A stretch of 61,944 nucleotides of DNA from a virus: positions 1 through 61,944 of the IMG/VR virus record IMGVR_UViG_3300020172_002942; one strand, given 5' to 3'. Position numbers and translations under genes: made by a program. A model generated the notes under the pieces. It searched no databases. It was not told the DNA's origin and saw nothing but the letters and a program-made list of their open reading frames with translations. Below are positions 19,346 through 53,065 of this stretch, piece after piece. How positions within the stretch are numbered: the first letter of the stretch is position 1; each line of letters starts with the position of its first letter.

Positions 19346-19714
19346 ATGGCAAATTCAATAGCATATGTATTGTCTAAAAATACATACCCTGATGCCTTTC
19401 AGGCAAATCTTATAGGAGTTGATCAAGGCACTCAAATTGTCTATGCAACAACAAGTACATTAACATCCGCAAATGTATTATTTGCCGATAGTAGATTAAC
19501 ACAACCAATTTTTGGAGATGGCACAAGTTGGTATGGTGTACAATTATTAACAGATGATTCTGTTTTATATCCTATTACCATAAATGGTATTGGAACTATA
19601 GTAATTGGTTCTGGAACTACTACTACTACAACGACTACAACAACTACTACAGCTGCACCAACAACTACTACAACGACTGCTGCACCAACAACAACAACTA
19701 CTACAGCAGCTTAA
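19346..19714 (+). CDS. Small virion-region protein with long Thr-rich tail
   Basis: 122 residues. An ~88-residue beta-rich domain (TYPDAFQANLIGVDQGTQIVYA, SWYGVQLLTDDSVLYPITI) is followed by a tail of 12 Thr, AAP, 6 Thr, AAP, 6 Thr, AA. The DNA of the tail is an ACA/ACT triplet array that could expand or contract. The DNA-level repeat and the similar tail of the upstream gene suggest related decoration proteins. Function unknown. Confidence 0.65.
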   Translation: MANSIAYVLSKNTYPDAFQANLIGVDQGTQIVYATTSTLTSANVLFADSRLTQPIFGDGTSWYGVQLLTDDSVLYPITINGIGTIVIGSGTTTTTTTTTTTTAAPTTTTTTAAPTTTTTTAA

Positions 19715-25844: not shown

Positions 25845-28800
25845 ATGCCAATAATAAATAACCCATTTAATGGTAAATTAAATCTGGATGTAGCAGATTA
25901 TAGAATTGACAACAATGACTATATTGATGCTTTAAACATAACCAAAGACGCAGAAGGTACAGGCCAAGATAGAGTAGTATCTAATATATTGGGTAATACC
26001 AATATATCATATAGTTTACCATCTGGAACAAATAAAGTTATTGGATTTTACGCTGACCAAATAAGAAATAGAGCTTATTATTTTGTATGGAATAGTAATG
26101 GTTATAGTAGTATTTTGTATTTGGATTTAAATACTAATAAAATTACTAAAGTTTTACAAAGCAAAACAGATAGCAGTGATGTTGATATCTTAACATTTAA
26201 TCCATCATATAAAGTATTGTCTGTTAATATATTTTATAGAGATGATGAAGGCGATATTTTATATTTTAATGATGGCCTTAACCCACCTAAAAGTATAAAT
26301 ATTCTTAATACTTACGGCACATCTTGGAAATTGGAGTATTTGTTAATCGCAAAAGCTCCTCCAGTAATGCCTCCAAAAGTTACATTTGAAAATGATACAG
26401 TTGTAACTGTAAATAATTTAAGGAATTCATTATATCAATTTTGTTATAGATTTGTTTACCAAAACAATGAAAAATCTGTATGGAGTTCAAGGAGTGTAGT
26501 ACCTTTGCCACAACAGCCTACATTATTTTTGACAAATCCTGATTTAAGTTTAAATGCTAGAATTTCAATATCTGTTTCTACTGGGGATAAAGATGTTAAA
26601 GCTATTGAATTAGCTTTTAGAGAAAATAATAATAATACGGTTTCTGATTTTTATTTAATTAAGCAATTAAATAAATCTGAAAATTCAATACCACATAATG
26701 ACATATATACTTACAAATTTTATAATGATAGTATTTATGGTCAAATAGATGTTATAGAAACAGCACAATTGCAAGATTGGGTTCCTCAAAAGGCAAATGC
26801 TGCTGAATTAGCAAATGGTAATACTTTATTATATTCTGGGATTACTGAAGGTTACGATAGGACAAGTATGAATTTATTGTCCTATACTCCAAATCCAGCA
26901 CTAAATATACCAGTTCCATATACATTTTTCCAAGATTTTTGTGGATTATTGTTCTTTGCTACCTGTAATGGTTTAGATAGTGGTTCGACTGGTAGAATAT
27001 TAAAAATATATTTATATGGTACGGGTACAAATACTAATGGTGAAGTTACTACGTTAAATAACGCTATAGGTCAATATGTTATCAATGTAGTAAATTCTAG
27101 TTATACTAATATAGGATTTACATATGAGAATTTAACAACGCCAAAAACTGTTTCTTCTATATTAACGGCTATTTCTGTTGGTTTAGTTGCAAATGGAAAT
27201 AATTGGAGTCAAGTATCACTAAATGGTAATGTGTTAACAATGTCAAACACAAATGATTTTACATTATATTCAAGTGGTTTAAAATATATTAGTAATGCTG
27301 TAAACCCAATTAATAATACTGTATATGCTAATTCTTGGGATTCTGGTTATCAGTATGGATTACAATATTTTGATGGTCAGGGAAGAACAATTGGAACACA
27401 AACAAATAAGTTAGCAACATTTACTACTAATAAATACAACGGAACTAGATTTACTCAAACATATTTGCAGATTAAAAATAGACCACCATTAGAAGCTAAA
27501 TATTTTCAAGTAGTAAGATCAAATAATACTACTTATAATAAAAGATTATTTTGGATATGTAATAATGCATTTAGAAGTCCATTATCTGTAAATTCAGTTA
27601 CTTCAACATATGATTTAGAATCATTTGCATATATAGATATATCAAATATTACTGAATATAATAAACAGTTTAGTTCATCTACGAGTGTTGTTTCTTATGC
27701 TTTTACTCCAGGAGATAGAATTACATTTTTACAGAGATATAATGAATTAGGTGTTGCTGTGCCTATTAATATTGTTGATTTTGAAATTTTAGGTACAGAA
27801 GGATTGGTAGAAACCACTGTTGGTCAAAGACAAGGCAATTTTATTAAAATTAAATATCCGCAGGCTGCTGTTGATGCAGATCCAACTAATTTTAATTTTA
27901 ACAATGAAGTTGGATTTAGGAATTATGAGATATTTTTGTATAATTATTCTACAAATTCTGATTCTACACAAAAGTTTTTTTATGAATTTGGTAAATGTTT
28001 TGGTATTGGTAATCCTGGCACCGAAAATAGATATCATATAGGATTAGAACAAACGCAATCTGCTACTGATTATGTAAATGTGCCAGCTATAATTAGTGGT
28101 ACAAATGGTGATTTATTTTGGAGGCAAAGAAATGTACTTTATCAAACATTATGGGATTATAATGCAGGAAATCAAAATGTAGCTATAACTGGTAATGTTC
28201 TTATTTTTAAGTCATTAATAATGAATCCAGATAATGTAAATAATTCTTTTGCATATGGTAATGCAAATTTTTTAATATCTGGGCAGGGAGATGTTGCAAT
28301 GTACCCATTAGATCCTACTTTATATCCTTCTTTTTCAGATAATGGATTTTTTTGGAATAAAACATCTGGTACTATTTTATTATCAATTGATTTTAGTGTA
28401 AGAGCAACATATGATAATGAAACAGCTAGCGTTATACCAAATTTCTTTATTGTTTATGTAGATTCAACAACAAAAACATTTAAAATACTTTCAACTGTAA
28501 GAACAGAAGGTACGGGGCAAGATACATTAGTTTGTTCTACAAAAATAACTATCCCACCTAATACAAAAGCATGGATTGGAGTAGATGGTGAAAGTGTTTA
28601 TTATTCTTCATTTAAAATGAAGATTAACATATTGCAAACACAACTTATTTCAGTTATTGAAAGTAGTTTTAATGATGCATACTATTTATCAATGAATAGT
28701 AATGGTAGAGAATCTGTTATTGATGTAAATGCTAGAAAAGTTTATTTCCCTACATTGATTAGATTTAGTCAATCTTATCAAGTTAGTACAAATATAAATG

Positions 28801-29630
28801 GTACAAATAGTTTTTATTTTGAAAACTTTGATGAATATGATAGAAGTTTTGGAGATGTAATGAGATTACATGTGAGAGATAGATATTTAAAAGTTTATCA
28901 AAAGTTTAAAGTGGGAAATGTTCCTATTTTAACACAAATTATTAAGGATAGTGCAAATAACCCATTACAAGCTAATACTGATAAATTAATTAACAAAATT
29001 CAATACTACGAGGGTAATTATGGCATTGGAGATGCTTCTACTAGTTTAGCATGGAATAACTTTGCTGATTATTTTGTAGATAATTATAGAGGAGTTGTAT
29101 GTAGATTAAGCCAAAATGGTATTGAACCAATAAGTATTGTATATCATACAAATGCATTTTTTGTAGCTAAATTGAAGGCTTATAGGCAACAATTAAATAA
29201 TGGAGCTGCAGCAGATGGTCAAATATATACAGGAAATTCTTGTATATATGGAGTATTTGATTCTTATACAAATAAGTATATAATTGCAATGGAAGAGATT
29301 AATAGATATTCTGATTGTACTTATAATGGAGGTATTGCAATAACTTATACGCCTACAACTACAACCACAACCACAACGGCTGCTCCAACAACCACAACCA
29401 CAACGGCTGCGGCTACAACGACTACAACTAGTACTACTACAACAACTACAACAACTAGTACAACTACAACCACAACCACAACGGCAGCCCCAACAACTAC
29501 AACCACAACGGCTGCACCTTCTGTTACGTATATATGTAACGGTAATCCTAATTGTGTACCTTATGATAGTTTAATAAACTGTCAAGATTCTGGTTGTCAA
29601 GATTGTATTCAAGGCAATTGCCCTCCATAA
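25845..29630 (+). CDS. Stabilisation/tail-adaptor protein with Thr-rich linker and Cys-rich end
   Basis: 1261 residues. The start NNPFNGKLNLDVADYRIDNNDYIDALNI, followed by a Gln-Asp..VVSNILGN segment, is the beginning I associate with the P22 gp10-like stabilisation proteins of crAss-like and related podoviruses. The body is Asn/Tyr/Ser-rich beta structure. Near residues 1168-1223 there is a run of Thr with AAP and AAA breaks, followed by a ~36-residue end with six Cys (ICNGNPNC, NCQDSGCQDC, NC). The long linker therefore tethers a small, possibly disulfide- or metal-stabilised knob. This protein probably closes the portal and forms the tail base. Confidence 0.65.
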   Translation: MPIINNPFNGKLNLDVADYRIDNNDYIDALNITKDAEGTGQDRVVSNILGNTNISYSLPSGTNKVIGFYADQIRNRAYYFVWNSNGYSSILYLDLNTNKITKVLQSKTDSSDVDILTFNPSYKVLSVNIFYRDDEGDILYFNDGLNPPKSINILNTYGTSWKLEYLLIAKAPPVMPPKVTFENDTVVTVNNLRNSLYQFCYRFVYQNNEKSVWSSRSVVPLPQQPTLFLTNPDLSLNARISISVSTGDKDVKAIELAFRENNNNTVSDFYLIKQLNKSENSIPHNDIYTYKFYNDSIYGQIDVIETAQLQDWVPQKANAAELANGNTLLYSGITEGYDRTSMNLLSYTPNPALNIPVPYTFFQDFCGLLFFATCNGLDSGSTGRILKIYLYGTGTNTNGEVTTLNNAIGQYVINVVNSSYTNIGFTYENLTTPKTVSSILTAISVGLVANGNNWSQVSLNGNVLTMSNTNDFTLYSSGLKYISNAVNPINNTVYANSWDSGYQYGLQYFDGQGRTIGTQTNKLATFTTNKYNGTRFTQTYLQIKNRPPLEAKYFQVVRSNNTTYNKRLFWICNNAFRSPLSVNSVTSTYDLESFAYIDISNITEYNKQFSSSTSVVSYAFTPGDRITFLQRYNELGVAVPINIVDFEILGTEGLVETTVGQRQGNFIKIKYPQAAVDADPTNFNFNNEVGFRNYEIFLYNYSTNSDSTQKFFYEFGKCFGIGNPGTENRYHIGLEQTQSATDYVNVPAIISGTNGDLFWRQRNVLYQTLWDYNAGNQNVAITGNVLIFKSLIMNPDNVNNSFAYGNANFLISGQGDVAMYPLDPTLYPSFSDNGFFWNKTSGTILLSIDFSVRATYDNETASVIPNFFIVYVDSTTKTFKILSTVRTEGTGQDTLVCSTKITIPPNTKAWIGVDGESVYYSSFKMKINILQTQLISVIESSFNDAYYLSMNSNGRESVIDVNARKVYFPTLIRFSQSYQVSTNINGTNSFYFENFDEYDRSFGDVMRLHVRDRYLKVYQKFKVGNVPILTQIIKDSANNPLQANTDKLINKIQYYEGNYGIGDASTSLAWNNFADYFVDNYRGVVCRLSQNGIEPISIVYHTNAFFVAKLKAYRQQLNNGAAADGQIYTGNSCIYGVFDSYTNKYIIAMEEINRYSDCTYNGGIAITYTPTTTTTTTTAAPTTTTTTAAATTTTTSTTTTTTTTSTTTTTTTTAAPTTTTTTAAPSVTYICNGNPNCVPYDSLINCQDSGCQDCIQGNCPP

Positions 29631-29662: not shown

Positions 29663-30232
29663 ATGTATATACTAGTTAAATTAAATTCAAATCAAGGAAC
29701 AGATTTAGGCCCTAATTTTACATTAGCTGCAAATGTTGGTACATTAGTGCCAGCAACTGCTACTTTAGCCGAATTATTGGTTGGCGTAACAGTTCTTGCT
29801 GATAATGCAGCTACTCAGGTATTTGTAACTTCTCAGGGGGTATGTACAAATACATTGACTATTGCTGTTTCCCCTGCTACAACTACAACTACATCAACAA
29901 CTACATCAACAACTACGACTACAAATACGAATTGTTTATTATCTGGTGGTACTGTGGTAGTATCTCCATATATTTTATATTCTAATAGATTTGTATTTAG
30001 TAATTCAGGGCCAACTGATATATGTATTTTACCAACTGTACCTGCTTATGGGTTACCATATTATATTTTTGATTCACCTCCGCAATTATTTCAAGATCCA
30101 TATGGAACAACACCGTTCCCATATTCAAAGGTTCTTGATGTAGTTTTCCCTAGCGGTGGTTCTAATAATGTATATGAATATAATAGTTCAACAGGGGCGG
30201 TAGGGGCTTATTTTGGGGCATGTTTAAGTTAA
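29663..30232 (+). CDS. Small beta-domain protein with Thr-rich linker
   Basis: 189 residues. Residues 1-72 form a beta-type domain (TLAELLVGVTVLADNAATQVFV, CTNTLTIAV) followed by TTTTTSTTTSTTTTTNT and a second domain with paired Cys (NCLLSGG, DICILP, GACLS). The first domain is a distant relative of the next protein (both end ..V.S..C.N.L.I.V.P before the Thr run). Likely a modular virion surface protein; no enzyme motif. Confidence 0.6.
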   Translation: MYILVKLNSNQGTDLGPNFTLAANVGTLVPATATLAELLVGVTVLADNAATQVFVTSQGVCTNTLTIAVSPATTTTTSTTTSTTTTTNTNCLLSGGTVVVSPYILYSNRFVFSNSGPTDICILPTVPAYGLPYYIFDSPPQLFQDPYGTTPFPYSKVLDVVFPSGGSNNVYEYNSSTGAVGAYFGACLS

Positions 30233-30248
30233 ATTTAAAATAATAAAA

Positions 30249-30530
30249 ATGGCAATAGCGACAATAACATTAACAACAGCAGGTGCAGCAACTGGCCCAT
30301 TTGATTTATATTCAAATATAGATGGTTATACTACACCATTTGCTACGGGAGTAACAAGAGCTCAGATATTAGCAGGCTATTTAACTAATAATTTTCCAAG
30401 CTTACCCTCACTACCCACAATTGTTAGAGTAAAATCTACTGTTTATTGTGTTAATTATTTGGATATTAATGTTACACCTATGACTACAACCACAACAAGC
30501 ACAACGACTACAACAACAACAGCTCCTTAA
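30249..30530 (+). CDS. Small beta-domain protein with Thr-rich C-terminus
   Basis: 93 residues. The domain ATITLTTAGAATGPFDLYSN, DGYTTPFATGVTRAQILAGY and VYCVNYLDINVTP is a small repeated type found in phage tail-region proteins. It ends MTTTTTSTTTTTTTAP. It looks like a single-domain version of the N-terminal half of the preceding protein, so the two are probably duplicates. Function unknown; a fibre or decoration module is likely. Confidence 0.6.
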   Translation: MAIATITLTTAGAATGPFDLYSNIDGYTTPFATGVTRAQILAGYLTNNFPSLPSLPTIVRVKSTVYCVNYLDINVTPMTTTTTSTTTTTTTAP

Positions 30531-41255: not shown

Positions 41256-44200
41256 GTGGCGATACAGAATTTAATCAGCGGTGATTTAAAATTAAGAAAT
41301 GAGAATGGTATTCTTGTTGCCGTAAATGGTATTGTAAACGCTGATACTAGTGGAACTATAGGAACATCTGGTTCTTCAGGTACTAGCGGCACTTCTGGAA
41401 CTAGAGGCACTTCTGGTACATCGGGTTCAACGGGTACAAGTGGGTCTAGTGGAACAACGGGAACATCTGGTAGCTCTGGTAGTTCTGGTAGCTCTAGCAC
41501 TTCTGGTACATCGGGAACTACAGGTACTAGCGGTACAAGTGGATCATCTGGTTCTTCAGCAACAGCTGGAACATCGGGAACATCGGGAAGCTCTGGTAGT
41601 TCAAGTACTTCAGGAACTAGTGGTACTTCAGCAACCTCTGGTACATCTGCTACAGATGGTACAGGTGGAACTTCGGGAACAAGCGGTACATCGGCAACTT
41701 CTGGTACTAGTGGTACTTCAGGAAGCTCTGGTACCGATGGTACTTCAGCAACTAGTGGTACTGATGGTACAGGTGGTACAAGCGGTACTTCTGGTACTTC
41801 AGCAACAAGCGGTACAAGCGGTACGACTGGCACTTCTGGTTCTTCAGGGACTAGTGGGAGCAGTGGTACAAGCGGTACTACAGGAACTAGTGGTACAAGT
41901 GCGACAGATGGGACAGGTGGAACTTCTGGTACTAGTGGTACAGATGGCACTTCTGGTACTAGTGGTACAGATGGAACTTCGGGTACAACAGGTACATCGG
42001 GCACCTCTGCGACAAGCGGTAGTTCAGGTACTAGTGGAACAGATGGTACAGGCGGAACAAGCGGTACGGGTGGTACAAGCGGATCTTCAGGGACTGATGG
42101 CACAAGTGGAACTTCTGGAACTTCTGGAACTTCTGGAACTTCTGGAACAACAGGTACTTCAGGTACTTCAGGTAGCAGTAGCACATCGGGTACATCGGGT
42201 ACATCAGGAGTAAATGGCGTATCAAATAACTTATTCTTATATCAAGCACACACAACATCTCAATCAGGTTATCCTGGTAATGGCCATATTCTTTGGGATA
42301 ATGCTACACAAATTAATTCTACATCAATAAACATTAGCCATTTGACTGATAATGGTATTGATGTTGATATTTTCTTGGCATTACTTCAAGATTTACAACA
42401 AATAACTATTCAGGATCAAAATAATTCTGCTAATCGTCAGATTTGGGATATTAATGGAACGCCAACTTTGGTACCAGGAACAAATAATTATTGGATAGTA
42501 CCTGTTACATTAATATCATCGGCTGGTACAGGTACAACAAATTTTGCTAATAATCATCCTTTATTTTTAGCTATTGTTTCTCAATCAGGTACTAGTGGTA
42601 CTAGTGGCCTTAATGGTACGTCTGGTACGTCTGGTACGTCTGGTACGTCTGCAACAAGTGGTACAACGGGTACTTCAGGTACTTCAGCTACATCTGGTAC
42701 AAGCGGTACAAGCGGATTTTCTGGTACAAGCGGAACTTCTGGTACAAGCGGTACAGATGGGACAGGAGGAACATCAGGAACATCTGCTACATCAGGAACC
42801 ACAGGTACATCTGGAACTACAGGTACAAGTGGAAGCTCTGGGACAAGTGGTGGAACTGGTAGTGCAGGCACTTCTGGTTCTTCAGGAACTAGTGGAAGCA
42901 GTGGGACAAATGGTTCTTCAGGAACTACAGGAACTTCTGGTTCTAGTGGAACTTCTGGTTCTTCAGGGACTAGTGGAACCACAGGAACAAGTGGTACTTC
43001 TGGTACTAGCGGTACATCAGGTACTAGTGGTGGAACTGGTTCTTCAGGAGCATCAGGTACGTCAGGTACTTCAGGTACTTCAGGAGCAGCTGGGGGATCT
43101 GGTTCATCTGGAACTTCTGGTGTAAATGGTACAAGTGGAACAAGTGGTGTATCTCCATCTGTATCAGGGTATTTACCACTAAGTGGTGGTACAATGACAG
43201 GAGATATAACTTATGTCAATTTAAGAAGTAGTGTAGATTCTTCATATGGTTTTATTGGAAGAAATGTTTATGCTGATACTATAAATGGTATTGGAGCAGA
43301 TCCACTAGAATTAAATTATTATAGTGGAGGTTCTGTAATTATAGGTACTGGTACAGGAAGTAAAGCATTATATGCTGGTTCATTATTTTCTGCTAATAGT
43401 GCTGTATTAACTGTTGCTAACTATACATCATATGCAGTTCAAACAACAAGTCAATCAAACTGGAACTCTTATAGTGTAATAAACAATGTTGTAGGAATGT
43501 TAGCATGGAAAAACTATGGTAATAGTCACGTTATATTTGATGCTTCTCAAGGTACTTCTCCAAGTGGTGGTGGTGTAAGTCAAACTAATGCAACATATGC
43601 ATGGAGTGCTTCTTATCCTACATTAATGGGATGGAATGGTAGTGCTACATATGGGGTAAGAGTTGATTCTGCTAGGGTTGCCGATAGTGCTGGTTCTGCA
43701 TCTACTGCAACTTATGCTACTAATAGTACTCGTTTATATGCATCAGATAACCCTTATTGTTATGGATGTGCTGCACCATATTATATGTATATGACATATG
43801 ATGGAACAAGATGGTTATTGCAAGTTTCTCCAGCTACACCATCTGCTGTAAGAGTTTCTTATGCTGATAGTGCAGGAGGGTTAGTAGCTGATGCTACTGG
43901 TACTAATATCTATAACAATGGATGGTTTAGAAATAATAATTCTAATCAAGGATTGTATAATCAGGTTACAACAATGCATTGGTCATCTAATAGTAATGGT
44001 AATTGGGATGCATCTTCTACTACTAGTACTACTGCTATTAGATTTTATACAGGAGGTCATGTATTATCACTTAGAGGTTATGTTTATGCAGACAGTAGCA
44101 ATAACATTGGTTTTTTAGATAATGGTGGAAACTGGTCTTTTAGAACTAATGGTAATAATGTTTATGCATATGCTTATAGGGGTAGTGGAAACGTAGCTGG

Positions 44201-44966
44201 AACAGGAGAAGCTACATATCATCCAGCTGGTATATATAGTACAGGAAATAACTGGTTATATGGTACTATATATATGAATTACAATTCTATTAATGATGTT
44301 AGTAATTTGTATAGTGGAGCATATTATGCAACAAACTGGTTTAGAGCACAAGGAGATTGTGGATTATACACACAAGATTATGGTGGGCATTTTAGAAGAA
44401 GTGCTTCATCAAATTATGGTACTTGGGAAGTTTTTGGTTATGCTAAAGGTAATTATAATGGTATAAATATTATAGATAATTCAGGCTACTGGAATAATCA
44501 TATGTTTAATAGCGGTAATGGTGGAGTGTATCAGGAAAATGGACATGGTTGGTTATGGTATTATCATCTTGGTAATAACTGTTTTGGTGTTACAACTTCA
44601 ACTACATCAAGTTCATATAGAATGTATGTAGCTGGAGCAATATATGCAGAAAGTGATATTTGTGCTTATTCAGATGTGCGTAAGAAAGAAAACATTGTAA
44701 CAGTAGAAAATGCTCTTGAAAAGGTTTTGAAACTTCGTGGTGTTAACTACAACAGGATTGATGATGAAACTAAGACACGTAAGATTGGGGTAATTGCACA
44801 AGAAACAGAACCAATACTTCCAGAGGTAGTAACATATGCAGCAGATGTAGATGAATATAGTGTAATGTATGGAAACATGTCTGGATTGTTTATTGAGGCT
44901 TTTAAAGAGCAGCAAACTGAAATAAAGCAACTTAAACAATTAGTTAACCAATTATTAAGTAAGTAA
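41256..44966 (+). CDS. Collagen-like tail fibre with S74 intramolecular chaperone
   Basis: 1236 residues, GTG start. After a ~30-residue N-terminal anchor (ISGDLKLRNENGILVAVNG) come Gly-X-Y triplets, mostly GTS, GSS, GTT and GTD, at residues ~33-322 and again ~444-634, separated by a ~120-residue globular domain. A VSGYLPLSGGTMTGDI segment, the usual phage fibre motif, opens the adhesive part. The C-terminus from about residue 1136 is an S74 chaperone: YSDVRKKENI with catalytic-type Ser1139 and a following Lys, then GVIAQETEPILPEVV and a C-terminal coiled coil. S74 domains trimerise fibres and then cut themselves off. Probably the receptor-binding fibre. The Thr/Ser-dense triplets are potential glycosylation sites (inference). 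Confidence 0.85.
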   Translation: MAIQNLISGDLKLRNENGILVAVNGIVNADTSGTIGTSGSSGTSGTSGTRGTSGTSGSTGTSGSSGTTGTSGSSGSSGSSSTSGTSGTTGTSGTSGSSGSSATAGTSGTSGSSGSSSTSGTSGTSATSGTSATDGTGGTSGTSGTSATSGTSGTSGSSGTDGTSATSGTDGTGGTSGTSGTSATSGTSGTTGTSGSSGTSGSSGTSGTTGTSGTSATDGTGGTSGTSGTDGTSGTSGTDGTSGTTGTSGTSATSGSSGTSGTDGTGGTSGTGGTSGSSGTDGTSGTSGTSGTSGTSGTTGTSGTSGSSSTSGTSGTSGVNGVSNNLFLYQAHTTSQSGYPGNGHILWDNATQINSTSINISHLTDNGIDVDIFLALLQDLQQITIQDQNNSANRQIWDINGTPTLVPGTNNYWIVPVTLISSAGTGTTNFANNHPLFLAIVSQSGTSGTSGLNGTSGTSGTSGTSATSGTTGTSGTSATSGTSGTSGFSGTSGTSGTSGTDGTGGTSGTSATSGTTGTSGTTGTSGSSGTSGGTGSAGTSGSSGTSGSSGTNGSSGTTGTSGSSGTSGSSGTSGTTGTSGTSGTSGTSGTSGGTGSSGASGTSGTSGTSGAAGGSGSSGTSGVNGTSGTSGVSPSVSGYLPLSGGTMTGDITYVNLRSSVDSSYGFIGRNVYADTINGIGADPLELNYYSGGSVIIGTGTGSKALYAGSLFSANSAVLTVANYTSYAVQTTSQSNWNSYSVINNVVGMLAWKNYGNSHVIFDASQGTSPSGGGVSQTNATYAWSASYPTLMGWNGSATYGVRVDSARVADSAGSASTATYATNSTRLYASDNPYCYGCAAPYYMYMTYDGTRWLLQVSPATPSAVRVSYADSAGGLVADATGTNIYNNGWFRNNNSNQGLYNQVTTMHWSSNSNGNWDASSTTSTTAIRFYTGGHVLSLRGYVYADSSNNIGFLDNGGNWSFRTNGNNVYAYAYRGSGNVAGTGEATYHPAGIYSTGNNWLYGTIYMNYNSINDVSNLYSGAYYATNWFRAQGDCGLYTQDYGGHFRRSASSNYGTWEVFGYAKGNYNGINIIDNSGYWNNHMFNSGNGGVYQENGHGWLWYYHLGNNCFGVTTSTTSSSYRMYVAGAIYAESDICAYSDVRKKENIVTVENALEKVLKLRGVNYNRIDDETKTRKIGVIAQETEPILPEVVTYAADVDEYSVMYGNMSGLFIEAFKEQQTEIKQLKQLVNQLLSK

Positions 44967-44967
44967 T

Positions 44968-45267
44968 ATGTCAACTCCTAGTAGCGGTACCATATGTTGG
45001 AGCCAGATACAATCAGTATCAGGGGGAAGCTATTGCATGTCTAATTTTAATGCTGTGAGTGGAAGGGGGTATTGCGCAAGTAACTATTATAGTTATAGTC
45101 CACCTGCTACTTGTCTTGCTTATCAATGTTATGATTATGGATGGGTTGAATATATTGATTGTTATGGATATTACCAATACTATTATGTAAACCCTTATGA
45201 TAATTTTTGTGTAAATAATTTCTTAGGAGGCCCTGCTTATTGGACAGGTAGTTATTGTGAATTTTAA
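44968..45267 (+). CDS. Cys- and Tyr-rich small protein
   Basis: 99 residues with eight Cys and many Tyr (YCASNYYSYSPPATCLAYQC, YIDCYGYYQYYYVNPYDNFC). Almost no Lys or Arg. It looks like a small disulfide-stabilised surface module, unusual in an intracellularly assembled particle unless disulfides form after lysis. It starts one base after the fibre gene stop, so a fibre-tip or fibre-binding role is likely by position only. Confidence 0.6.
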   Translation: MSTPSSGTICWSQIQSVSGGSYCMSNFNAVSGRGYCASNYYSYSPPATCLAYQCYDYGWVEYIDCYGYYQYYYVNPYDNFCVNNFLGGPAYWTGSYCEF

Positions 45268-45516: not shown

Positions 45517-45864
45517 ATGAAACAAATTCAACCAGTAATGGTATGGTCTAATGGCCAAGAGTTGGAAGCAAATGTCTTAAATGCTTATGTTGTAAGTGAT
45601 AACTTATTAAATGAAGCTGTTTTTTATTATGGCATAGGTACTATATATTATAGTATAAACCCATTATCAACACCATTGTCATTTGGCAGACTTACAATGA
45701 CAGGACAGGATTATTTAGATTGGCAAACTAATCAATATGCTTGGGATTGGGTAGCAGCACAGTTAAATTTGACAATTGTGGGAGATATTACCACAACTAC
45801 AACAAGTACAACAACAACTGAAGCTCCAGCTACTACTACTACTACTACTACATTGGTTCCATAA
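45517..45864 (+). CDS. Small protein with Thr-rich tail
   Basis: 115 residues. An ~88-residue domain (VMVWSNGQELEANVLNAYVVSDNL, LTMTGQDYLDWQTNQYAWDWVAAQL) is followed by TTTTTSTTTTEAPATTTTTTTLVP. The domain differs from those of the other Thr-tailed proteins, so the tail is a shared add-on. It closes the fibre operon before the promoter at 45868. Confidence 0.65.
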   Translation: MKQIQPVMVWSNGQELEANVLNAYVVSDNLLNEAVFYYGIGTIYYSINPLSTPLSFGRLTMTGQDYLDWQTNQYAWDWVAAQLNLTIVGDITTTTTSTTTTEAPATTTTTTTLVP

Positions 45865-46363: not shown

Positions 46364-46384
46364 AAGCAGGCTAAAAACCTGCTT
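46364..46384. terminator. Bidirectional terminator
   Basis: AAGCAGG (46364-46370) and CCTGCTT (46378-46384) form a 7-bp stem with a 7-base loop. It has A-runs on the left and TTCTTTTATTTTA on the right, so it can work in both directions. It separates the virion operon from the leftward glycosyltransferase genes, whose stop codon lies in the loop. Confidence 0.8.
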
Positions 46385-48380
46385 CTTTTATTTTATCTAT
46401 TACCATGTTAGATGGGATTGACCTTTGACATTCAAATTCTTTGTTTCGTGGACACCATAGCCAATGTGGATCTAGCTTAATATTTGGATCATTCCAACAT
46501 CCATTGCATACATCAGGCTTAGTTACTCGGTAACAATCAAATTCATGGTCTGCTTCGGTAAAATTGGAAATCATAACTACTTTTTGATTGAGAGCCCACG
46601 CTAACCAAGATAGCCCACTAGATAAACCTATAAATAGTTTAGCTCCTCTAATTACATCCATTGTACTTCTTATGGAAGTATCTTTTATTTTGGTGCAATT
46701 TTCAAATGGATTATCCTCTTTTGATACATTGTAAACATCATATCCTAATTTATGAAAGTAGTTTATAACTTCTTGCCATCCTTCTCTAGTCCAAAACTTA
46801 CATTCCATTGTAGAATTTGTGGCAATTGTAATATATTTTTCACTAGGTATGCCAAATTCATTAGAATGATTTATTCTAGGTCTTAATGGCTTATAATCTA
46901 AACCAAGTATATTAGCAGCAGCCTGTTGAAGCGGTATGGTATTGCATAATACAGGCTCTTTATTCTCATCCCACTTCCATCCAATCCTATATAAAGCATA
47001 ACAATTAACCGTAGTTCCAGGCTCAACTAACTCTAATTCTGGATAGTCCAGTATTTTATTCCAAAAACTGGACATTACCACATGGCAATTATGCTTCTTT
47101 TGGAATTCTAAGCCATATGCAGCCCATGCAATTGTATCACCTAGGGATTTACTATCCAATACTATAAAAACCCTCTTATTGGTCAGATTTAGGGTGTTTT
47201 TGTAGATCAAATAACCATCCTGCCAAACCTTTGTTGTCCATTTGGTATAATATTGCCTGTTTAACTTAACCCAAGAGTTTGCTTTTATTGTGTTTTCATA
47301 AGCAATACTACCTTTCTCATCTAAAAATTGAACCTTAAAGTTGCTATCTGAAATTCCCTTGATTTCCAAAAATGGATTGTCCACAAAATGCTGTGTAATT
47401 TTTACCTTTTGTTTTTGAATAGGTAATTCTAATAATTTCATATAAGCTTCTTCATGTCTAAGTCCAAATATTAATGTGGTGTTGTCAGTAGGTACATTGT
47501 AATTACATTCTATGGTATTTAAATCAGTATCTATTGGCTGTATGTATTTGGTAAACATATCACCATATTGAGGTAAGTTTCTAGATATGATAGGTAAACC
47601 ATAGCTTATGGCCTCACGCAAAACTAAGGGATTACATTCCCAAGTGCTATTAAACATGAAAATATCAGCCATCTCCATAAAAGTATCAACGTCTTTTCTT
47701 TCTCCCCATATCCTTACATTATCTGGTATATCTTTCATAAGTGGTTCCCAATAATCTTTAAAGTTCCCAGCTTGGTTACCAACAAAATGAAATGTCATAT
47801 TAGGGTATTTGCGAGCAATCTCAAGTCCCTCAGCTTGATTTTTACCTTTAGTCCATAAGCCTACATTAAGAACATGTTTACCATCTTTCACTGCATTTAC
47901 TTCTTGTTTATCTATTGGATATTGTATTGTAACAAACTTAGATTCCATATTAGAAAATGTTTGCTCATGGTATGGGGTACAAAAAGCATATAAATCAGGA
48001 TGAAATAATTTTTCTTCATCAGGATTAAAAGCAACGTCATGTATTGTTTCTACTATTCTATATTTTCTATTAGAATCATAAAGTTTAGCTATCATCTGTC
48101 TATCCAATCTTTCTGATGGTTCATCTATATGAATAATATCTGGTTTCCATTTTTTAATTACATCAAATAGCTCCATTTTATTTTCATACAAAGTAGTAAA
48201 GTTTTCTTCTAGTAAACTTTTTATAGCATCACGTTGCACCACAAAATCTAAACTATGACATTGATATTCAACTACATAGTATTCATTTTCGGTATAATCT
48301 TTAAGACTTTGAATTCTTTTAAGTAAAAACTGAGGCATCCCCCCTGTACTAAGATGCGGAGCTAGAAATAGTATTTTCAT
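46371..48380 (-). CDS. Fusion of GT4 glycosyltransferase and autotransporter-heptosyltransferase-like domain
   Basis: 669 residues. Residues ~1-330 are a GT-B/GT4 enzyme: FLAPHLSTGGMPQFLLKR, VLNVGLWTKGKNQAEGL and the sugar-nucleotide motif STWECNPLVLREAISYGLP. Residues ~335-669 read like the autotransporter strand-loop-strand O-heptosyltransferase family (TibC/Aah type): a small beta domain, then VFIVLDSKSLGDTIAWAAYG, YALYRIGWKWDEN, SSGLSWLAWALNQKVVMIS and a Cys cluster Cys625, Cys628, Cys643 and Cys651 (CNGCW, WCP, FEC) matching the iron-binding finger of that family, with shorter spacing at the end. Those enzymes put heptose on Ser of repetitive adhesins. Natural substrate here unknown. Confidence 0.8.
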   Translation of the reverse strand: MKILFLAPHLSTGGMPQFLLKRIQSLKDYTENEYYVVEYQCHSLDFVVQRDAIKSLLEENFTTLYENKMELFDVIKKWKPDIIHIDEPSERLDRQMIAKLYDSNRKYRIVETIHDVAFNPDEEKLFHPDLYAFCTPYHEQTFSNMESKFVTIQYPIDKQEVNAVKDGKHVLNVGLWTKGKNQAEGLEIARKYPNMTFHFVGNQAGNFKDYWEPLMKDIPDNVRIWGERKDVDTFMEMADIFMFNSTWECNPLVLREAISYGLPIISRNLPQYGDMFTKYIQPIDTDLNTIECNYNVPTDNTTLIFGLRHEEAYMKLLELPIQKQKVKITQHFVDNPFLEIKGISDSNFKVQFLDEKGSIAYENTIKANSWVKLNRQYYTKWTTKVWQDGYLIYKNTLNLTNKRVFIVLDSKSLGDTIAWAAYGLEFQKKHNCHVVMSSFWNKILDYPELELVEPGTTVNCYALYRIGWKWDENKEPVLCNTIPLQQAAANILGLDYKPLRPRINHSNEFGIPSEKYITIATNSTMECKFWTREGWQEVINYFHKLGYDVYNVSKEDNPFENCTKIKDTSIRSTMDVIRGAKLFIGLSSGLSWLAWALNQKVVMISNFTEADHEFDCYRVTKPDVCNGCWNDPNIKLDPHWLWCPRNKEFECQRSIPSNMVIDKIKEAGF

Positions 48381-49722
48381 CTATAAATTTATTTATTTTT
48401 TCAATATTTTTTTCGCCATGATAGAATAAATGATTTTGTTCTAAAGGTACCTTTTGCCATTGTTTAAGTATGTATTCATGGTTTTTATACTCTAATTTTT
48501 CATGCAACCCGTTTATGTAACAGTATGGCAATCCTTTATGCTGGTTGTATTTCCATAATAATACATTAGCTATTGTTTCTTCATGAAAAGGTGCATACCA
48601 ACCATTGTTTCTGATAATTGACGGATGTTGGCACATCCAAGCCCATTCGTTTAACCAATCAATACAGTTCTGTCCTGCTACAAAATAACCAGTCTGTCTA
48701 TATCTTTCACGAACATATTGATTAATTGAAAATAATTCACAAGCGGGAGCTTCTAATGTAGTGCTCATATCTTCTCTTGTTTCAGCTCCTCCTCTACCAT
48801 TCACATGTAAGTAATCGTATATACCTTCTGCAAAATAAGGATGGCTAGAATCTTTATCAAAATAATCAAATATTTTATTTATTTTATCAGTGGCTATGCT
48901 GTCTGTGTCAATGTAGGCAACTGTTTCAGCATAATATTCTAACGCATGTGCTAATATTTTAGGGCGTTCTATAAGTAGTTTATATATCTGTTTATCCTCT
49001 CTGTCAATATACTCTTTTCTTTTCTTTAAATGTATTACATCACATTGCCATTCAATGGTTTGTGTGTTTTTTACATTTATTTTAGCTTTAGAATTAAGTA
49101 AATAAACGAAAATAGGAATATTACTATAATTTCTAATGGAATTACAACAAGCATCCACAAGATCCAAATAAGACTCATCAGCATAAAGTACAAAGGCTTT
49201 TTCATGTTTTTGTTTTTTATTTGTATAATAACCATAGAAATTATTGCCATAAAGCAGTTCTAAATCTGGGTATCTTTCGGCCATTATATCAGGCGTAAGG
49301 TCAGGCTGTAAGTGGGTTTCATATTTGTTACCTTCATATTCGTCTTGCTCCATTTGGTATGGCACTGCAACAAGAAACTTCTTTTTAGACATTTCCAAAA
49401 AAGTTATAAGCCATTGTCCTTCCATTTCAGATAAATGTTCTAAGACATCACCTAAAATAAAAAAATCATATTTTTTGTAAAAAGCAGCAGGCATGCCGAG
49501 TATGTTTTTATTATAAACTACACCATACTTTTTATTTAATTCGTATTTATCTATGTATGGTTTCCATATTTCTACTGCATCCATTTTGTAACCATAACCA
49601 CGTAATAAATCACTATAAGTACCACATCCAGCTCCAACATCTAATATTTTAGCATCTAATGGCACATGATTCAAAAACCAATTCCTTACAGAATCTTTGT
49701 ATAACGGGTAACTTGTCGGCAT
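48349..49722 (-). CDS. Fusion of SAM methyltransferase and GT-A-like glycosyltransferase
   Basis: 457 residues. Residues 1-~168 are a class I methyltransferase: AKILDVGAGCGTYSDLL is the SAM-binding loop (26-36), VEIW the acidic strand 2, FFILGDVLEHL motif IV. Residues ~174-450 look like a GT-A fold: EKAFVLYADESYLDLVDACCNS start, AETVAYIDTDSIA with metal-binding Asp272-x-Asp274, GLPYCYINGLHE near the end. Both domains could modify the same sugar or chain. Its 3' end overlaps the start of the GT4 fusion by 32 bases, so the two are co-expressed. Confidence 0.75.
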   Translation of the reverse strand: MPTSYPLYKDSVRNWFLNHVPLDAKILDVGAGCGTYSDLLRGYGYKMDAVEIWKPYIDKYELNKKYGVVYNKNILGMPAAFYKKYDFFILGDVLEHLSEMEGQWLITFLEMSKKKFLVAVPYQMEQDEYEGNKYETHLQPDLTPDIMAERYPDLELLYGNNFYGYYTNKKQKHEKAFVLYADESYLDLVDACCNSIRNYSNIPIFVYLLNSKAKINVKNTQTIEWQCDVIHLKKRKEYIDREDKQIYKLLIERPKILAHALEYYAETVAYIDTDSIATDKINKIFDYFDKDSSHPYFAEGIYDYLHVNGRGGAETREDMSTTLEAPACELFSINQYVRERYRQTGYFVAGQNCIDWLNEWAWMCQHPSIIRNNGWYAPFHEETIANVLLWKYNQHKGLPYCYINGLHEKLEYKNHEYILKQWQKVPLEQNHLFYHGEKNIEKINKFIDENTISSSAS

Positions 49723-49735
49723 AAATTATTTATTT

Positions 49736-50278
49736 TTAATATCTTTCAAAAAGGAATTTACCAACAAATGGATGAATTTTAAACATTCCATAATTCACAG
49801 CAATTCCTTGATTACATGAAATTACTAATTTGTGAAAACCTTTTAATTTCTCTCTAAATTCTTCTATATTATCATTCCCTTTATAATCTTTACATGTATT
49901 ACAACAAGGCATAAGATTATCATATTCCATTGATTCGGGCATCATTTTATCAACTTTCATATTATTTATTGTAATTCTTTGTCCACAATAAGCACAAAGA
50001 CCATCATATTTTTCGTATATTTTTTCTATATCCATTTTATGAGTTTGGTTGTAATATTCTTCTGATGTCATTTCGGAATCCCAATTAGTATATCCTTCAT
50101 TATAAGCATTTCTTATCTGCTCCTTTTCTTTTTCAAGTAGGTATTCTGCTAATGTTAAAACAACAGAATAAGCTATATTATGCCCATATTGATAAACAGT
50201 TAATTCACCATTTTCTTTACTTGATGGTATAATTTTACTTTCAATTTCATCCTTTAAAAATTGCATTGCTGTTTTCAT
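49736..50278 (-). CDS. HNH-like protein fused to a small phage domain
   Basis: 180 residues. The N-terminal ~80 residues (AEYLLEKEKEQIRNAYNEG, EEYYNQTHK) match the small proteins encoded at 59059 and 59344. The C-terminal part has CAYCG (Cys95, Cys98) and CCNTC (Cys126, Cys129), the zinc pair of an HNH nuclease, with VDKMMPES between them. In active HNH enzymes that Lys111 is normally the first catalytic His (DHI.P), so this copy may be inactive or divergent. Looks like capture of an HNH domain by a resident gene. Confidence 0.6.
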   Translation of the reverse strand: MKTAMQFLKDEIESKIIPSSKENGELTVYQYGHNIAYSVVLTLAEYLLEKEKEQIRNAYNEGYTNWDSEMTSEEYYNQTHKMDIEKIYEKYDGLCAYCGQRITINNMKVDKMMPESMEYDNLMPCCNTCKDYKGNDNIEEFREKLKGFHKLVISCNQGIAVNYGMFKIHPFVGKFLFERY

Positions 50279-50891: not shown

Positions 50892-51269
50892 ATGAAAATA
50901 GAAGTCAGCATAGGTGAAGTGGTAGATAAATATACCATCTTAACCATAAAAAAGCTATTCATTCATGACAGTGAAAAGCTTGCAAACATTGAGAAAGAGT
51001 GGAAGTTAATCAAATCTTCATTGGTCAAAAAGTACCCAGAAACCTTAACAGATCCATTTACCCAAGAGCTTTATGATATTAACAAAAAATTATGGAAAGT
51101 AGAAGATGATATAAGGGATTGTGAACATAAAAGCTATTTTGGTGAGAAGTTTGTGGAATTGGCCAGAGAAGTTTACCAATTAAATGATGTCAGAGCCATA
51201 ATTAAAAAGCAAATAAACCAAAAGTATGGTTCGGAACTCATAGAAGAAAAATCGTATAAACAACACTAA
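50892..51269 (+). CDS. DUF6165 family protein
   Basis: 125 residues. VSIGEVVDKYTILTIKK, LYDINKKLWKVEDDIRD and VYQLNDVRAIIKKQIN, ending GSELIEEKSY, fit DUF6165 along the whole length. In bacteria members lie in surface-polysaccharide and glycosyltransferase loci. The two glycosyltransferase genes directly downstream agree with that. No catalytic motif; probably a helical scaffold or regulator of sugar transfer (inference). Confidence 0.75.
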   Translation: MKIEVSIGEVVDKYTILTIKKLFIHDSEKLANIEKEWKLIKSSLVKKYPETLTDPFTQELYDINKKLWKVEDDIRDCEHKSYFGEKFVELAREVYQLNDVRAIIKKQINQKYGSELIEEKSYKQH

Positions 51270-51272
51270 TTT

Positions 51273-52205
51273 ATGAAAAACCTCAGATTTATCTGTGCAC
51301 AGCCAACATCTCTATTTTATGCTTGGCAAGTAGAAGTATTAGTAAACAACTTTATGGATATGGGTATCAACCCTAATAATATTGATATTGTAAGTTGGAA
51401 AGTCAATGGTGTAATACCTGTGGAGTGGGTAAAGCTTACTCAAAAATACCCCGTTAACTTCCATTTTTATAACGATACTAGAGAAACAAAACATTACATT
51501 TCCTCAATCCGTCCAAACATATTAAAACAGCATTTTGAGGCACACCCTGAATTACAAAATGAAGCCATATTCTACCATGATTGTGATATAGTATTCACTA
51601 AACCAATTGATTGGAAACAATTTTTAGAGGATGATAAATGGTATGGTTCTGATACAAGATGGTATATTGCCCATAGTTATATTTTAAGTAAAGGCCAGGA
51701 CATAATGGATAAAATGTGTGAAATAGTAGGCATAGAAGAGTCAATCATTAGGGATAATGAGCTTAACTCAATCGGGGCCCAGTATTTAATGAAAGGCATT
51801 AATGCAGAATTTTGGGCTAATGTAGAAAGAGATTGCGAAATTTTATATAAAGACATAAGTGCTTTAAGTAATATTAAAAAGTCCCAAGATCCTAGTTATC
51901 ATGAATTACAGATATGGTGTGCGGATATGTGGGCAGTCCTTTGGAATGGGTGGAAATTAGGCAAAGAAACGGTTTGCCATCCTGATTTAGAGTTTGCATG
52001 GGGGACTAGTTCGGAAAGCGATTTTGATAGGTTAAATATATTGCACAATGCAGGTGTTGTTTCTGCCGATGATGGATTATTTTACAAAGCAAATTTCATG
52101 AATCAATTGCCATATAATCGTAATTTGAATATAAAGGAGGGGACAGCTTCCAAAAAATATTATGAAATTATTCAGAAAATAGAGAAAAAATCAGTTTTAA
52201 TATGA
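51273..52205 (+). CDS. GT-A-like glycosyltransferase
   Basis: 310 residues. AIFYHDCDIVFTKPIDW carries a DxD motif (Asp103, Asp105) on a typical strand for metal-bound sugar nucleotide. RFICAQPTSLFYAWQVEVLVNNFM is the GT-A start, and WGTSSESDFDRLNILHNAGV is a plausible acceptor loop. Donor and acceptor cannot be read from the sequence. It overlaps the next gene by four bases. Confidence 0.65.
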   Translation: MKNLRFICAQPTSLFYAWQVEVLVNNFMDMGINPNNIDIVSWKVNGVIPVEWVKLTQKYPVNFHFYNDTRETKHYISSIRPNILKQHFEAHPELQNEAIFYHDCDIVFTKPIDWKQFLEDDKWYGSDTRWYIAHSYILSKGQDIMDKMCEIVGIEESIIRDNELNSIGAQYLMKGINAEFWANVERDCEILYKDISALSNIKKSQDPSYHELQIWCADMWAVLWNGWKLGKETVCHPDLEFAWGTSSESDFDRLNILHNAGVVSADDGLFYKANFMNQLPYNRNLNIKEGTASKKYYEIIQKIEKKSVLI

Positions 52206-53065
52206 TAATTACAAAAGCCACTTATGGAGGGGTAGATTGTACTAATATATTACAAAGCAAGATAGTAGCTGATAAGCTAGTAATTAGGGCAAATAATGAT
52301 ATAATTGGTGATCCTGCTGTGGGGCAAGTAAAATATTTGGAAATTGAATTTGAGGATGGTTTTCAGGCACAAATCAGAGAAGGCAATACATTTGTTTATC
52401 CTGAATCAAAGAATAGAAAATTGGGCATATTTTACTCAAATAACAACAATCATAATATTTGGCCTGCAATATATAAATCATTAGATACGATAAAAGAAGC
52501 AAGTGATGGGGTAGCTGATATTGTGGTGTGTACTTGGGAGTTTATGCCAGGTGTACCTTTCCATCAATTTAATAGTTGGTACACTAGCCAATCTCACTTA
52601 AATCAACTGTTGCAAATAATGCAATGCCTTTACATTGCTAAAACAATGGGACAATACGAATATGTTTCTTTCCTTGAACATGATGTAATGTACCCGAAGG
52701 GCTACTTTGATTTCCCTGATTTCCCTTCGGGTAAAGTGCTAACCAATATGAACTATGGCGGTGTTTGTAAAGATGGTTGGCAAAAAAGAAAGCAAAATGA
52801 TGAGCCATTTCATCAAATGACTATGAGATTAGAAGATGCAATTGAGCATTGTTTATCAATATTGCCAAATGCTTTAGTTACAAATAGTGGAATGATAGAA
52901 ACCCAAAAATTGAAAAGAATTCAATGGGAATGTGCAAATGAACCAGTTCATATTAACCATGGGGTACATTTTACAAGCCACAATTCTATTTACGACAAAA
53001 ATAATTTAACAGAAAACCACCCATATTGGGGGAATATTAATAATTATAAAAATTTATTTATATGA
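52202..53065 (+). CDS. Glycosyltransferase-like protein with N-terminal beta domain
   Basis: 287 residues. Residues 1-~67 (ITKATYGGVDCTNILQSKIV, IIGDPAVGQVKYLEIEF) resemble the small domain seen in DUF3395/DnaJ-like C-terminal regions (ITKA.YGg.DvT... GDP..G..K.L.v), often fused to carbohydrate-binding or glycosyltransferase proteins. From ~72 a GT-like domain follows, with YVSFLEHDVMYPKGYF holding an acidic EHD (Glu159-Asp161) in place of DxD, and VHINHGVHFTSH near the end. Role in surface-sugar modification inferred from neighbours. Confidence 0.6.
   Translation: MIITKATYGGVDCTNILQSKIVADKLVIRANNDIIGDPAVGQVKYLEIEFEDGFQAQIREGNTFVYPESKNRKLGIFYSNNNNHNIWPAIYKSLDTIKEASDGVADIVVCTWEFMPGVPFHQFNSWYTSQSHLNQLLQIMQCLYIAKTMGQYEYVSFLEHDVMYPKGYFDFPDFPSGKVLTNMNYGGVCKDGWQKRKQNDEPFHQMTMRLEDAIEHCLSILPNALVTNSGMIETQKLKRIQWECANEPVHINHGVHFTSHNSIYDKNNLTENHPYWGNINNYKNLFI

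Follow-up and report, generated by a model that had tools for sequence, protein, structure and literature searches.

A phage-encoded GT4 and TibC-like fusion glycosyltransferase associated with proline-free collagen-like fibres, and its probable role in virion glycosylation

The autotransporter strand-loop-strand O-heptosyltransferases (BAHT; family model TIGR04414) include TibC and Aah (PMC4358343). In TibC, residue R286 contacts adenine and is needed for activity, P300 sets donor stereoselectivity, and a thumb structure is required for the active dodecamer; Aah can use either ADP-D,D- or ADP-L,D-heptose (PMC4358343). Phages can decorate their own structural proteins with glycosyltransferases that they encode themselves: in mycobacteriophages, capsid and tail tube subunits were reported to bear glycans at their C-termini (Freeman et al. 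2023, as cited in PMC12619734). In collagen-like proteins, hydroxyl-rich G-X-Y repeats carry an O-glycan, as in BclA of Bacillus, and glycosylated threonine is a known stabiliser of the collagen helix (Bann et al. 2000; both examples as cited in PMC3368898). The locus described here differs from the mycobacteriophage case in that the evidence points to a TibC-type enzyme and to collagen-like fibre repeats, in phages of Bacteroidota and cyanobacteria. It differs from the collagen-like precedents in that those involve other enzymes and the repeats here are viral and lack proline.

The window analysed, a 61,944-nt stretch of viral DNA (IMG/VR record IMGVR_UViG_3300020172_002942), encodes at 46371–48380 (−) a 669-residue fusion of a GT4 glycosyltransferase with a TibC/Aah-like (BAHT-like) glycosyltransferase. 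The plus strand of this interval is full of stops, and the minus strand translates into 669 residues without one. A preliminary description had located the reading frame at these coordinates, which stand, and had placed a fibre gene just upstream, which does not: the enzyme gene lies on the opposite strand to the fibre and Thr-tailed genes, and the fibre gene converges on its 3′ side. The two-domain reading proposed there is borne out, and all of the motifs quoted for it (SLGDTIAWAAYG, YALYRIGW, SSGLSWLAWALNQ, CNGCW, WCP and FEC) fall within this frame. The N-terminal half (residues 1–320; 47421–48380 (−)) is a GT4 domain of the GT-B type, matched by PF00534 (residues 157–278, E 1e-12) and PF13692; its E-X7-E motif (E248/E256) is invariant in 37 viral homologues, and in Foldseek searches the modelled half resembles PglA, PimA and BshA.

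For the C-terminal half, TIGR04414, the family model that had been suggested as a check, scores 230 bits over residues 344–666, above its curated cut-off of 200, and by sequence the best solved structure for residues 326–669 is TibC (4rap, E 3e-42). An AlphaFold2 model of the fusion, built from the alignment of the 37 viral homologues (pLDDT 89), has TibC as its top Foldseek match in the PDB (E 1e-25, target TM 0.83), so the structural mismatch that had been named as refuting the preliminary proposal did not materialise. The Foldseek alignment spans nearly all 381 TibC residues, the N-terminal β-barrel included, and the model lies nearest to TibC rather than to WaaC. The β-barrel domain, delimited from the AlphaFold strands and the Foldseek alignment, comprises residues 326–400 (47181–47405 (−)), equivalent to TibC 1–97. 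It is followed by a catalytic domain (residues 401–669; 46374–47180 (−)) that conserves residues of TibC, lacks the thumb and contains the four-cysteine iron-finger of TibC (C625, C628, C643 and C651; 46428–46508 (−)), invariant in the 37 viral homologues. The fusion is confirmed as far beyond chance by full-length homologues of 50–89% identity in at least 127 viral contigs of IMG/VR. Two database proteins share the same fold, on the strength of annotation only: A0A7S9XE01 (Virus NIOZ-UU157), which matches the whole fusion at 54% identity, and A0A6J5SVC1 (uncultured Caudovirales phage), annotated ‘Glycosyltransferase Aah/TibC’. No study of phage TibC-like enzymes, these two included, was found in the open-access literature searched.

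Residue roles for the comparison with TibC were taken from PMC4358343 (eLife 2014; PDB 4RAP and 4RB4). The catalytic base D110 of TibC corresponds to D415 of the phage enzyme, the phosphate-binding T226/K230 to T524/K528 and the heptose-binding W305 to W592, all invariant in the 37 viral homologues; at the P300 position the phage enzyme has a serine (S587), as does Aah. Unlike in TibC, the adenine-contacting R286 is replaced by T573, in an ungapped stretch, and the thumb, a β-hairpin with a hydrophobic tip, is removed by a deletion of ∼10 residues in the phage branch. The equivalent arginine is retained in a Paraburkholderia BAHT and one huge-phage protein, and the thumb is kept in TibC and the Paraburkholderia enzyme. 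Without the thumb, the phage enzyme should assemble differently from the TibC dodecamer; with threonine in place of R286, its donor may differ and the sugar is possibly not heptose. A further difference from TibC and Aah is that the window has no autotransporter or strand-loop-strand partner: ten of its candidate virion proteins gave no match to that family. The phage protein is thus a TibC-like (BAHT-like) phage branch and not a BAHT proper, because it fails on R286, the thumb and the autotransporter partner despite its TIGR04414 score and most active-site matches.

In the absence of biochemical data, the donor is inferred to be a host nucleotide sugar, with ADP-heptose possible. Genes for ADP-heptose synthesis are absent from the window, and ADP-heptose synthase is encoded in 86 of 148 Bacteroidota genomes. 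Donor production by the phage itself was rejected as a general rule, only one of 46 records (G047) encoding a match over the cut-off. This record, from a related phage, carries a stand-alone heptose-1-phosphate adenylyltransferase domain (L375:9607–10095; TIGR02199, 183 bits).

Upstream of the fusion gene, and overlapping it by 32 nt, lies a partner gene that the preliminary description did not include (48349–49722 (−)). Its 457-residue product joins a SAM methyltransferase (residues 1–165) to a GT-A domain (residues 172–449) with a DxD motif at 272–274, in which D272 and D274 are invariant; in Foldseek its model (pLDDT 89) retrieves methyltransferases and, with E values of about 1e-8 to 1e-7, UGGT and enzymes of the GT6 type. 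In 48 of 77 sequences the partner forms an in-frame N-terminal extension of the GT4–TibC-like protein; in the other 29 it is separate, as in the window. Judged from the size of the extension, 34 of the 48 carry both methyltransferase and GT-A domains and 14 only a GT-A domain. In contrast with TibC and Aah, the enzyme is fused to GT4 (and to methyltransferase and GT-A domains in relatives) and is phage-encoded. As read from the sequences, the system brings together up to four predicted glycan-building domains, either in a single polypeptide or across two genes that overlap. Directly upstream of the partner gene is an HNH endonuclease gene (49736–50278 (−)). Just three related loci have a homologue of it, and it was likely inserted recently.

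A DUF6165 gene and two other putative carbohydrate genes flank the cassette on its far side, on the plus strand. The DUF6165 protein (50892–51269 (+); PF19662, E 6e-13) recurs beside the enzyme at 46 of the 78 loci compared, and a putative GT-A-like glycosyltransferase of PHROG 4417 (51273–52205 (+)), with an invariant DxD (D103/D105), at 34. The latter is probably a further glycosyltransferase of unassigned family, an inference made without a PDB or Pfam match. The product of 52202–53065 (+) matches rhamnose-binding (SUEL) lectins (E 5e-11) over its N-terminal ∼50 residues; the rest is inferred to be a GT-like domain, making a lectin–enzyme pairing in a phage possible. Profiles of the 51273 and 52202 products found no glycosyltransferase match in the PDB.

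The commonest neighbour family, present in 66 of the 78 loci, is a collagen-like fibre. In the window this is a collagen-like tail fibre (41256–44966 (+); PF01391, E 5e-45; PHROG tail fibre) that ends in an S74 chaperone domain (PF13884, E 6e-15). Repeat counts delimit a first, interrupted block of G-T-S and G-S-S triplets at residues 33–308 (41352–42179 (+)) and a second block of G-T-S triplets at residues 445–633 (42588–43154 (+)). Across 128 G-X-Y triplets, X is threonine in 96 and Y is serine in 96, and proline is never found. The likely acceptor, by inference, is this fibre, which sets the phage enzyme further apart from TibC and Aah. Directly after the fibre gene, 44968–45267 (+) encodes a 99-residue Cys/Tyr-rich protein with homologues in only three loci.

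Many records are fragments and related contigs are not independent, so the association of enzyme and fibre was assessed by clustering and by a lineage-controlled test. T/S-rich, proline-free G-X-Y repeats occur near the TibC-like domain in 33 of 55 independent clusters. For the full fusion the figure is 34 of 42, against none of 120 neutral viral loci sampled by a neutral 14-mer. Of the 29 records retrieved by way of the fusion, 27 have collagen repeats, the two exceptions being a Bacteroidetes MAG and a 47-kb contig with a short GTS stretch. Among records of at least 50 kb, the enzyme is found in 23 of 35 picked by GTS repeats and in 1 of 23 picked by Pro-type repeats; this sole Pro-type record (G081) carries GSSGSSGTSG repeats too, and its reassignment gives 24 of 36 GTS records against 0 of 22 Pro-type-only records (p 1e-7). 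About one-third of the GTS-fibre records of this size are without the enzyme. Some of these may be fragments, and a TIGR04414 search of the enzyme-negative records revealed no missed copy over the cut-off. Within the terminase lineage of the window (records of at least 49 kb), GTS repeats occur in 14 of 14 fusion-positive and 0 of 4 negative records (p 3e-4); among the four, G527 was scored negative although it shows a partial match, a weak one (E 8e-9, spanning 96 positions). The 14 shorter contigs of this lineage all lack the enzyme; nine have GTS repeats, and at least two of the nine end inside the repeats. In large records, adjacency of the genes exceeds random expectation only slightly (combined p 0.02) and was not relied on as stand-alone proof of the pairing.

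The same pairing of a TibC-like enzyme with a fibre of this type stands side by side in a phage of another host phylum. The isolated Microcystis phage Mel-JY01 (PP395634.1) encodes a GT4–(GT-A-like)–MT–TibC-like protein (317 bits), and its gene comes directly after an unannotated reading frame of GTSGSSG repeats. This long fibre frame is on the plus strand (L394:1–3049); the deposited CDS 739–2298, which crosses the repeats on the opposite strand, is probably spurious. The TibC-like domain and collagen repeats are both present in a 735-kb huge phage, and a counterexample is the huge phage LR756504, which has the domain without the repeats. Several comparisons, with neutral loci, Pro-type fibres, the terminase lineage and the other host phylum, tie the TibC-like domain to Ser/Thr-rich collagen-like fibres and not to phages generally.

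The TibC-like domain occurs in at least 585 viral contigs, and a scan of ∼85,000 bacterial and archaeal genomes recovered one fusion fragment, in a Bacteroidetes MAG contig. No TIGR04414 match over the cut-off was found in 395 Bacteroidota genomes, which makes a dedicated viral substrate plausible. The host of the window virus is probably a member of the Bacteroidota, an inference from its terminase relatives, which infect Flavobacterium and Cellulophaga. A Bacteroidota-type promoter motif occurs nine times in the window against 4.8 expected, which is not significant, and the window has no terminal repeats.

Taken together, these observations are probably best explained by a system, encoded by the virus, for the O-glycosylation of proteins, most likely those of its own virion, although there is no biochemical or mass-spectrometric evidence for it. 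Self-glycosylation of the virion, the central proposal of the preliminary description, gains support from the TibC match and the fibre association tests, with the acceptor inferred and not demonstrated. An unlikely account that nevertheless retains some weight is that the GTS fibre and the enzyme merely mark certain aquatic phage lineages, and that the true acceptor is the poly-Thr-tailed proteins, the capsid or similar. Among the structural genes, the window encodes several further possible acceptors of this kind: a 115-residue protein with a poly-Thr tail (TTTTTSTTTTEAPATTTTTTT; 45517–45864 (+)), a virion structural protein that is mucin-like, with poly-Thr/AAP near residue 1192 (25845–29630 (+)), a 122-residue protein with a poly-Thr/AAP tail (19346–19714 (+)), and two small proteins of 189 and 93 residues with poly-Thr stretches (29663–30530 (+)). 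Phages with the enzyme also carry poly-Thr runs more often (24 of 46 records vs 2 of 34 without it). Within GTS-carrying records, however, that enrichment is not significant (p 0.26), and both the standing of the fibre as the most widespread neighbour family and its perfect concordance with the enzyme inside one terminase lineage speak against this account.

It is improbable that the enzyme instead alters a glycan or protein of the host surface, blocking superinfection or changing adsorption, with the fibre link reflecting the clustering of receptor-binding and receptor-modifying genes. The cassette does adjoin receptor-binding fibre genes, GT4 and GT9-type enzymes often build LPS, and serotype-altering phage glycosyltransferases are known (discussed in PMC12619734); yet the TibC-family members that have been studied glycosylate protein serine and not LPS, the structural match favours them over WaaC, Pro-type collagen fibres, which are phage fibres as well, do not co-occur with the enzyme (0 of 22 records), and the enzyme–fibre association spans host phyla. 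Glycosylation of phage DNA as a guard against host nucleases can be given very little credence: DNA-hypermodifying phage glycosyltransferases exist (cited in PMC12619734), but no modified-base synthesis gene is among the window proteins scanned, and a protein-glycosylating fold associated with fibres fits badly. Once weighed, host-surface modification and DNA glycosylation both rank below virion self-glycosylation.

In virion self-glycosylation, the TibC-like domain would place the first sugar on serine (or threonine) in repetitive, exposed stretches. Its main target would be the proline-free Gly-Thr-Ser fibre, perhaps joined by the poly-Thr tails. Extension and capping of the glycan would fall to the tethered GT4 domain together with the partner's methyltransferase and GT-A domains. 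This order of sugar addition is inferred, as is the benefit, which may be fibre stability, shielding or adsorption. Since glycosylated threonine stabilises collagen, such modification would explain how repeats without proline can work. A broader reading, offered tentatively and open to considerable doubt as a whole, is that phages have a second way to collagen-like fibres, in which (Gly-Thr-Ser)n is O-glycosylated on its hydroxyl residues by a dedicated TibC-type enzyme of several domains and the sugar, in place of proline or hydroxyproline, both stabilises the triple helix and gives the virion a glycan coat.

Virion glycosylation is testable in the isolated phage Mel-JY01, and the locus is a source of compact glycosylation enzymes that combine several domains and for which repeat substrates are predicted. 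If virion self-glycosylation is correct, a glycosylation family known from bacterial adhesins extends to many environmental phages (the at least 585 viral contigs above), and the stabilisation or protection of proline-free collagen-like phage fibres would be accounted for. If the broader reading holds as well, the TibC-type fold would serve chiefly to glycosylate viral fibres, and the autotransporter enzymes of bacteria would form one branch of it.
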